42,339 nucleotides of DNA, from the IMG/VR virus record IMGVR_UViG_3300036901_000039, positions 1 to 42,339 of that record. One strand, given 5' to 3'. Of this stretch, positions 36,042 to 37,570 are shown piece after piece. The stretch is from a virus. Within the stretch, counting starts at the first letter, position 1, and each line of letters opens with the position of its first letter. The notes beneath the pieces were generated by a model, which saw nothing but the letters and a program-made list of their open reading frames with translations, searched no databases and was not told the origin of the DNA. The position numbers were made by a program, and so were the translations under genes.

Positions 36042-36218
36042 ATGAAAGTTGATGCAAAATTAGCACTCAAACCAGAAGTATTCGATTTAATGAAGGAATT
36101 AGCACGTTGTGGAGTGCCAGAATTTAAGGCATTGTCGATTGGTTATTTGATGAGAAAACTAAAGTGCACAGCCTCAAGGGCTAAGCAATATTTAGATATC
36201 CACAATCGTGCTTCATAA
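36042..36218 (+). CDS. Small putative DNA-binding regulator
   Basis: The 58-residue protein MKVDAKLALKPEVFDLMKEL with ALSIGYLMRKLKCTASRAKQ is all-helical with a plausible helix-turn-helix (IGYLMRKLKCTASRAKQYL). It lies between a dyad-rich promoter and the methyltransferase gene, as controller proteins of restriction-modification systems do. It is too short to assign to a family. Confidence 0.55.
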   Translation: MKVDAKLALKPEVFDLMKELARCGVPEFKALSIGYLMRKLKCTASRAKQYLDIHNRAS

Positions 36219-36255
36219 GAACTATTATCAGACGTTACAAGGATTAATTTAGGGC

Positions 36256-37149
36256 ATGGGTAAATTAAATGGCTTGGATTTATTTAGCGGAATCGGCGGC
36301 ATGTCCGTCGGTTTGCAGGAATGGGTTAGACCCATTGCATATTGTGAAATTGACAAATATTGCCAAGGAGTTCTCCTCTCCCTCATGTCCACCAATGCAA
36401 TTTATTCAGCACCCATTTGGGATGATATTCGAAGTTTACCAACCATCATGTTTCCCGATATTGATATCATCTATGGAGGATTCCCATGTCAGGATATCAG
36501 CGTTGCAGGACGCGGAGAAGGCTTGGAGGGAAAGCGAAGCGGACTATTTTTTGAGATCGTGCGCTTGGCCAAAGAAATCAAGCCCAAGTTCATATTCCTT
36601 GAAAATGTCCCCGCCATCACAAGCCGAGGGGGTGTTACTGTCGTTCGAACGCTTGCCGAAATGGGGTATGATTGTCGATGGTGTGTTATATCCGCTGCTT
36701 CCATTGGAGCGTTACACCGTCGCGAAAGGTGGTTCTTATTGGGCTACGCCAAACACCCTGGATGGAATGGCTCTGAGGAGCGAGGAAGCCTTGAAGCACC
36801 AATTCTCCCATGCGCGAAAGGGAAGGACGAAACCTGCGAATCTGAGGGAACAGGTTCATCCTCAATGTTGGCCTCAGAATCTATTTCCAACTCCACAGGC
36901 CAGCGACGGGACGAAGGGGCCGGCAAAGGAATATGTTGCGGGAGGGAACCAAGCCAGCATGAGGAATCTCCCAACAATGGCAGCCCGGGGAATGAACAAC
37001 GATCAACCTGGTGGTCAGTTGAACCCGACGTGGGTCGAGTGGCTGATGGGGTATCCCAGCGGGTGGATAAACTTAGAGCCTTGGGCAATGCGGTGGTACC
37101 TCTTCAAGCGAAAGAAGCGTTCAAAATCTTAATGGGATTTAAATCGTAA
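36256..37149 (+). CDS. C5-cytosine DNA methyltransferase
   Basis: This 297-residue protein has all expected motifs in order: DLFSGIGG (motif I, residues 8-15), GGFPCQDIS with catalytic C78 (motif IV), ENVPA with E116 (motif VI), HRRERWF (VIII, ~154-160) and RALGNAVVP (X, ~274-282). The low-complexity stretch at ~165-250 corresponds to the target-recognition region, so the target is unknown. No restriction enzyme is adjacent, so it is an orphan enzyme that probably protects phage DNA. Almost the whole gene is also open in the +1 frame. Confidence 0.9.
   Translation: MGKLNGLDLFSGIGGMSVGLQEWVRPIAYCEIDKYCQGVLLSLMSTNAIYSAPIWDDIRSLPTIMFPDIDIIYGGFPCQDISVAGRGEGLEGKRSGLFFEIVRLAKEIKPKFIFLENVPAITSRGGVTVVRTLAEMGYDCRWCVISAASIGALHRRERWFLLGYAKHPGWNGSEERGSLEAPILPCAKGKDETCESEGTGSSSMLASESISNSTGQRRDEGAGKGICCGREPSQHEESPNNGSPGNEQRSTWWSVEPDVGRVADGVSQRVDKLRALGNAVVPLQAKEAFKILMGFKS
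36473..37132 (+). CDS. Overlapping +1-frame protein inside the methyltransferase gene
   Basis: The +1 frame is open from 36269 to 37132. The likely start at 36473 gives 219 residues beginning EDSHVRISALQDAEKAW. It contains ERLPKWGMIVDGVLYPLLPL, FPTPQASDGTKGP and the C-terminal GGQLNPTWVEWLMGYPSGW. I recognise the PTPxASD and LNPxWVEWLMGxPxGW motifs from phage proteins annotated separately as methyltransferase-associated. Here both are read from the same DNA as methyltransferase motifs IV to X. No ribosome binding site is seen before 36473, so translation might start elsewhere or by coupling. Confidence 0.55.
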   Translation: MEDSHVRISALQDAEKAWRESEADYFLRSCAWPKKSSPSSYSLKMSPPSQAEGVLLSFERLPKWGMIVDGVLYPLLPLERYTVAKGGSYWATPNTLDGMALRSEEALKHQFSHARKGRTKPANLREQVHPQCWPQNLFPTPQASDGTKGPAKEYVAGGNQASMRNLPTMAARGMNNDQPGGQLNPTWVEWLMGYPSGWINLEPWAMRWYLFKRKKRSKS

Positions 37150-37312: not shown

Positions 37313-37570
37313 ATGCAAAAACGAGAATTAGAAGTTGGCGACATTGTCCAGATCGATCCAGAAAAGCACGATTTTGGTGGTTGTTTAATGATTGTCACTG
37401 AACCTAAAGAATGGGGAGCCCAAGGATACCTTCTTATGGATAAAGAAATTACAGGGTTATGTAGATTTATGGGACAGGCATATATTCGTCTGACATGGGA
37501 GAAGATGGAATATGTGGGACATGCTGAATGGATATCTGTACCTAAACCTGACTCAACCATTCAAGATTAA
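37313..37570 (+). CDS. Small conserved-looking phage protein
   Basis: The protein has 85 residues from MQKRELEVGDIVQIDPEKHD. AAAGG is seven bases upstream of this ATG, and an upstream in-frame ATG lies against the tRNA-like end. A compact beta-rich fold is suggested by GCLMIVTEPKEWGAQGYLLM and AYIRLTWEKMEYVGHAEWIS. This family occurs as a hypothetical protein in many phages. Its 3' end overlaps the convergent tail gene by 29 nt. Confidence 0.7.
   Translation: MQKRELEVGDIVQIDPEKHDFGGCLMIVTEPKEWGAQGYLLMDKEITGLCRFMGQAYIRLTWEKMEYVGHAEWISVPKPDSTIQD

Follow-up and report, generated by a model that had tools for sequence, protein, structure and literature searches.

The phage locus described here most probably encodes a single heterodimeric C5-cytosine DNA methyltransferase of the M.EcoHK31I type, with both subunits encoded by one stretch of DNA in different frames, a reading to which we give a probability of roughly 0.88. 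It lies in a complete IMG/VR virus record of 42,339 nucleotides (IMGVR_UViG_3300036901_000039), hereafter the window. The large subunit, alpha, occupies frame 0 and carries methyltransferase motifs I–VIII and X. The second subunit, beta, is read in the +1 frame and lies wholly inside alpha, so that ~97% of alpha is dual-coded (Table 1).

Both open frames had been called from the letters of the DNA alone, and the translations given in that sequence-only reading are exact. Specifically, the DNA of the catalytic GGFPCQDIS reads MEDSHVRIS in the +1 frame, and the DNA of SVEPDVGRVADGV...RALGNAVVP reads LNPTWVEWLMGYP...LEPWAM. The same reading had described frame 0 as complete with all motifs, which is correct for motifs I–VIII and X; the motif IX block is carried by the +1 frame at that DNA. 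Two small same-strand genes flank the pair, one at 36042–36218 (+; 58 aa, no family matched) and the other at 37313–37570 (+; 85 aa, phrog_19062, function unknown), and the larger neighboring ORFs lie on the minus strand.

Table 1 Coordinates of the alpha/beta pair and its sequence features in the window.
Feature	Position	Strand	Remark
Alpha, C5-cytosine methyltransferase large subunit, motifs I–VIII and X	36256..37149	+	297 aa, frame 0
Beta, nested subunit (putative recognition region and motif IX)	36269..37132	+	287 aa, frame +1
AAGGA, candidate ribosome-binding site of the alpha start, possibly also of the beta start (13 nt downstream)	36239..36243	+	From sequence; putative, spacing suboptimal
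Beta start MAWIYL, ATG immediately 3' of a +1-frame TAA	36269..36286	+	M(x)WIYL retained by close relatives at three distinct DNA positions
Alpha motif I, DLFSGIGG (SAM binding)	36277..36300	+	From translation; near-invariant columns
Alpha motif IV, GGFPCQDIS, catalytic Cys78	36475..36501	+	Invariant G75, P77, C78, Q79, S82; +1 frame reads EDSHVRIS
Alpha motif VI, ENVP	36601..36612	+	Invariant E116, N117
Alpha motif VIII, HRRERW	36715..36732	+	Invariant H154, R156, R158
Alpha residues 171–262, predicted disordered linker in the recognition-domain position	36766..37041	+	pLDDT 39–47 over most of it; conserved part of beta lies on this DNA
Beta PTPQASD motif	36887..36907	+	P209 near-invariant; T208 likewise in a larger alignment
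Beta LNPTWVEWLMGYP, taken as motif IX	37019..37057	+	Near-invariant in beta; same DNA encodes alpha EPDVGRVADGVS
Alpha motif X, KLRALGNAVVP	37069..37101	+	Invariant G277, N278

Openness and coding constraint of the two frames

The +1 frame is longer than any obtained by reshuffling alpha. When the synonymous codons of alpha were permuted with the protein and the codon counts held fixed, the longest +1 frame averaged 105 codons and never exceeded 278, so none of 20,000 trials reached the observed 287. The longest +2 frame in the window alpha spans 38 codons. Related loci were retrieved from IMG/VR through beta (80 loci) and through alpha (29 loci); both frames match in all of them at the same +1 offset, and the core is open in nearly all. 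Over 95 distinct genes, the +1 frame contains 530 stops against 1016 expected, compared with 1927 against 1887 in the +2 control frame.

Outside the core codons, +1 stops occur at or above expectation. The core itself holds only 3 in 94 viral relatives, down to 27% identity, against ~586 expected. In 31 close relatives, codons 20–270 are free of +1 stops (about 200 expected), and in 63 distant relatives (27–43% identity) three stops fall in codons 63–260, where about 384 are expected. Fifteen close relatives were found by alpha alone, and hence chosen without selection for an open +1 frame; these have no +1 stop in codons 20–260 against about 102 expected. As a negative control, 24 ordinary C5-methyltransferases taken from pair-carrying genomes contain 424 +1 stops versus 407 expected.

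Constraint on beta was measured as the similarity of the +1 translations of distant relatives, expressed as a z-score against codon shuffles that leave the alpha protein fixed. Similarity does not depart from the null ahead of codon 63 (z −0.7 to 0.6), rises far above it over codons 63–283 (z 4.7 to 45, values inflated, like the shuffle statistics, by kinship among the sequences), and falls below it after codon ~283 (negative z). The +2 frame provides a built-in yardstick for this inflation, and its similarity also increases where constraint is strong, but less. The reverse test places alpha under constraint along its whole length.

Computation thus shows both frames to be under coding constraint, and their relative conservation changes along the gene. 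Alpha is the better conserved frame at motifs I–VIII and X, whereas beta is conserved better than alpha over codons 161–240, the recognition region. At the motif IX DNA both frames are frozen, with Gly265 of alpha encoded by GGG in 78 of 80 sequences and Gly260 by GGT in 69 of 80. The sequence-only reading had proposed a long, fully nested same-strand pair, and had named routine +1 stops in homologous methyltransferases, or unreduced variability at alpha-synonymous sites, as observations that would overturn it. The core is almost stop-free in relatives and the synonymous sites are strongly constrained; any genome that keeps one frame open and conserved keeps the other so too, and the proposal is borne out.

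These data leave an almost negligible chance that the open +1 frame is a by-product of the amino-acid and codon composition of alpha. Composition does explain part of the beta N-terminus, since MAWIYL partly follows from NGLDLF in alpha and the shuffles still give it in about 4 of 31. Against a compositional origin stand the synonymous-codon shuffles, the +2 control and the ordinary methyltransferases, together with the frozen synonymous sites and the better conservation of beta over codons 161–240. We rejected this explanation on the first three grounds, and it is refuted as far as sequence allows.

Independent starts of beta

Beta has its own conserved starts, as computation shows. In distant relatives, the last +1 stop falls at codon ~61, and next comes an ATG or GTG served by an internal Shine–Dalgarno sequence (typically taAAGGAGttagcaATG), placing the internal beta ATG at alpha codon ~63. 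A Shine–Dalgarno sequence with ATG/GTG in the +1 frame at codons 55–72 is present in 35 of 52 distant sequences, compared with a shuffle mean of 7.2 and a maximum of 18, and no such combination occurs in the +2 frame of the same 52. In the group to which the window belongs, beta starts at alpha codon 5 with M(A/V/G)WIYL; the window ATG lies 13 nt past the alpha ATG, without a strong Shine–Dalgarno sequence of its own.

The position of this start varies among loci. An M(x)WIYL start precedes the aligned start of alpha in L084, L089, L016, L088, and L007 (and, with GTG, in L011), and in most of these loci the leucine of NGLDL is encoded by CTC, with TTG or CTG used in the others. Five further loci (L083, L002, L004, L093, and L095) have a beta that opens with MWLYL at codon 17. 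The same N-terminal peptide at three positions and in three different DNA contexts is hard to explain unless it is translated.

Short betas of the distant group also have a QxxLF-like peptide near the N-terminus (29 of 52 sequences; shuffle mean 2.1, maximum 7), exemplified by MTQKDLF and EQLTLF and found in L063, L077, L035, L027, L111, and others at +1 codons 58–78 relative to the window alpha. We take this peptide to resemble the bacterial sliding-clamp-binding motif. The long beta of the window is without it.

The separate starts weigh against programmed frameshifting, in which ribosomes leaving the alpha frame would produce an alpha–beta fusion as the true monomeric enzyme. A fusion would have the merit of uniting motifs I–VIII and IX on one chain, with no computed result in its favor. 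However, beta is open and constrained over alpha motifs IV–VIII, a stretch of beta for which a fusion formed past motif VIII would have no use, and motif X lies in frame 0. The beta ATG sits right behind a +1 stop, distant relatives have the Shine–Dalgarno sequence, and beta starts upstream of the aligned alpha start in the first five loci named above. Programmed frameshifting was rejected because of beta's own starts, some of them upstream of alpha's, and we regard it as very unlikely.

Proposed division of the methyltransferase between alpha and beta

Alpha is recognizable as a C5-cytosine DNA methyltransferase of PF00145 (1.8e-40 over residues 5–171), with motifs I, IV (PCQ), VI (ENV), VIII (RxR), and X (GN). 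It also matches phrog_363 (3e-65), and its AlphaFold model retrieves M.HhaI by Foldseek (4.7e-15). The profile match to M.HhaI stops after motif VIII. Two features set alpha apart from an ordinary monomeric enzyme: its recognition region is predicted to be disordered, and the motif IX-like block is found only in the +1 frame. Computation therefore places motifs I–VIII and X on frame 0 and the motif IX block on frame +1.

Beta matches phrog_1008, annotated as DNA methyltransferase, at 3.7e-18 over residues 65–269, and no family in Pfam or NCBIfam. It holds a conserved PTPxASD region and a near-invariant LNPxWVEWLMGYPxGW block. In variants whose beta also bears motif X (Mycobacterium phage Catdawg gp5, Arthrobacter phage ArV1 067b, L140, L237, L248, and L249), the block lines up in register, together with motif X, with motifs IX–X of ordinary enzymes (hhalign E about 0.009), and the betas of ArV1 and Catdawg hit the C-terminal C5 portion of phrog_116 (1.1e-6 and 7.5e-6, respectively). 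These alignments suggest that the beta block is motif IX and beta the recognition half of the enzyme, a role to which its position, conservation, and precedent also point. HHalign of window-type beta against ordinary recognition domains was without significance, and PDB searches with the beta profile or an X-bearing beta returned nothing relevant. The predicted model of beta is weak (pLDDT 62, pTM 0.32), and Foldseek with that model found nothing in the PDB.

Beta could instead be a genuine overprinted protein with its own function, for example anti-restriction or regulatory, and no methyltransferase subunit. The conserved features that distinguish its N-terminus (MxWIYL among close relatives, a QxxLF-like peptide in many distant ones) and a model lacking PDB matches would fit such a protein. 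We nevertheless consider it improbable: the most conserved block of beta occupies the motif IX position and is absent from alpha, the recognition region of alpha is predicted disordered, the variants with motif X on beta show that beta is methyltransferase C-terminal sequence, and M.EcoHK31I provides a precedent.

In M.EcoHK31I, whose subunits measure 176 and 309 aa, the small subunit is likewise read from another frame within the gene for the large one, as it is at the window locus. Both M.EcoHK31I proteins are reportedly needed in vitro, to judge by the title of a 1995 paper by Lee, Kam and Shaw. M.EcoHK31I is a C5-methyltransferase (YGGCCR) of two polypeptides, with motifs I–VIII and X and the predicted target recognition domain (TRD) on the large subunit and motif IX on the small subunit only (PMC3404938), and has been employed as a naturally split enzyme (PMC3439449). 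The window follows this division, with motifs I–VIII and X on alpha and the putative motif IX, LNPTWVEWLMGYP, on beta only (the in-register alignment being modest, E about 0.009; phrog_116 1e-6). Unlike in M.EcoHK31I, the recognition region of the window appears to reside on beta, the second frame covers nearly all of alpha, beta almost equals alpha in length, the two starts adjoin, and the locus is a phage locus. Because the placement of the TRD differs, our claim is that the pair works and is laid out like M.EcoHK31I, rather than one of proven membership.

M.AquI is another C5-methyltransferase (CYCGRG) made of two polypeptides, with motifs I–VIII on one chain and motif IX on the other (PMC3404938). 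Its motif X belongs to the small subunit, in contrast to the window, where motif X is on alpha in frame 0 and the overlap is nearly complete. Within the same family as the window pair, Catdawg gp6/gp5 (L119), ArV1 067a/067b (L120), L140, L237, L248, and L249 are split enzymes of the M.AquI type. In these variants, alpha ends soon after motif VIII, and beta, which overlaps alpha, bears motifs IX and X.

Given M.EcoHK31I, this kind of gene pair is already known, and the beta family already stands in public annotation under the name DNA methyltransferase (phrog_1008; BLOOM_56 and BLOOM_57 of phage Bloom). In the open-licence literature searched, we found no published account of this phage gene overlap. 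As far as that search extends, its wide distribution, the almost total overlap with neighboring starts, and the coexistence of AquI-like layouts are unreported; being confined to open-licence papers, the search is no proof of novelty.

Distribution, possible origin, and significance

A scan of genome contigs with the beta profile retained 80 loci. The records are named after Bacteroidetes, Nitrospirota, Opitutae, Akkermansiaceae, Bacillota, Desulfovibrio relatives, Spirochaetia, Planctomycetota, Elusimicrobia, Acidobacteria, Actinomycetota, Neomarinimicrobiota, Patescibacteria, and Proteobacteria, plus one Poseidoniaceae archaeal MAG. The pair is thus present in phages, in contigs whose names refer to more than a dozen bacterial phyla, and in one archaeal MAG; most of the genome records are MAG contigs, which may derive from phages or prophages. 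In 77 of the 80 loci, beta is offset by +1 from both ends of alpha, and the other three comprise L140 with motif X on beta, L166 with a frame change, and L174, in which motif X was not found. In L166 (2602–3400, Bryobacterales MAG), the N-terminal domain of alpha shares one frame with beta and motif VI onward lies in another, either through a frame change or a sequencing error.

Eighty viral contigs were selected solely by the DNA of WVEWLMG. The alpha N-terminus and motif X are found at the nested offset in 67 of them, 65 in one ORF; seven are cut by the contig end, three have motif X on beta, and three are irregular. In none of the 80 is the alpha N-terminus in the WVEWLMG frame. The sequence-only reading had regarded phage proteins with the second-frame motifs as free-standing. 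This is contradicted by the nested loci counted in both sets and by the best 80 viral +1 matches, all of which overlap an alpha homologue; among 240 loci classified, no clear free-standing protein was found, contig-end-cut ones aside.

Annotated phages of Acinetobacter, Microcystis, Pseudomonas, Escherichia, and Bacteroides also carry the pair, as do Leptospira and Paenibacillus plasmids. A search of E. coli genomes with the gene of phage ESSI2 gave only two partial matches. Paenibacillus larvae phages such as Bloom have both overlapping CDS annotated as methyltransferase. Most other records examined annotate alpha alone, which leaves many genome annotations one enzyme subunit short.

In a few loci (L099:2290–3741, L101–L103, and L020:1510–2330), alpha contains two extra codons, the first of them TGA, within the catalytic GGFP^CQ. 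An HNH-endonuclease-like ORF is present at alpha codon ~62 in L099 and L101–L103, and the insertion may be a homing cassette whose target site has changed.

We infer a heterodimer in which alpha (frame 0) would form the catalytic domain, providing SAM binding, the catalytic cysteine, and motifs VI, VIII, and X, with a disordered linker in place of the recognition domain. Beta (frame +1) would form the small domain responsible for target recognition and supply motif IX. Two neighboring or internal starts on one mRNA would yield both chains, beta being initiated independently, either at the closely spaced ATG seen in the window or, in distant relatives, at the internal ATG preceded by a Shine–Dalgarno sequence. 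The chains would then combine as a modification enzyme of the phage and methylate its DNA, probably protecting it from host restriction.

Such a pair may have originated from an ordinary gene by one frame change before the recognition region and a second after motif IX, the original frame having stayed open throughout as a disordered linker. With this origin, the recognition part of beta would be old methyltransferase sequence, and the N-terminal part of beta and the linker of alpha would be overprinted. The suggestion that the second-frame proteins arose by overprinting of methyltransferase genes may therefore apply to those two overprinted stretches. It does not extend to the recognition and motif IX part of beta, which is best explained as ordinary methyltransferase sequence shifted in frame; plain overprinting misses that the two proteins look like halves of one enzyme.

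To our knowledge, same-strand genes that are fully nested and strongly constrained in both frames are rare and mostly restricted to a single viral lineage. More tentatively, and as a possibility we would not yet favor, the pair may be an ancient, obligately dual-coded heterodimer that ranks among the most widespread fully nested same-strand pairs. Dual coding would then ensure that the catalytic and recognition subunits are transferred and expressed together. The N-terminus of beta would carry a docking signal of its own, overprinted on the catalytic motifs of alpha: MxWIYL in long betas and a sliding-clamp-like QxxLF in short ones. Mutations that are silent in alpha can remove beta, which makes a genetic test readily available. 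Methyltransferases cloned from alpha alone may appear inactive or unspecific because beta is absent. With partly overlapping and fully nested pairs, and motif X on either chain, the family offers natural intermediates for studying the evolution of dual coding.
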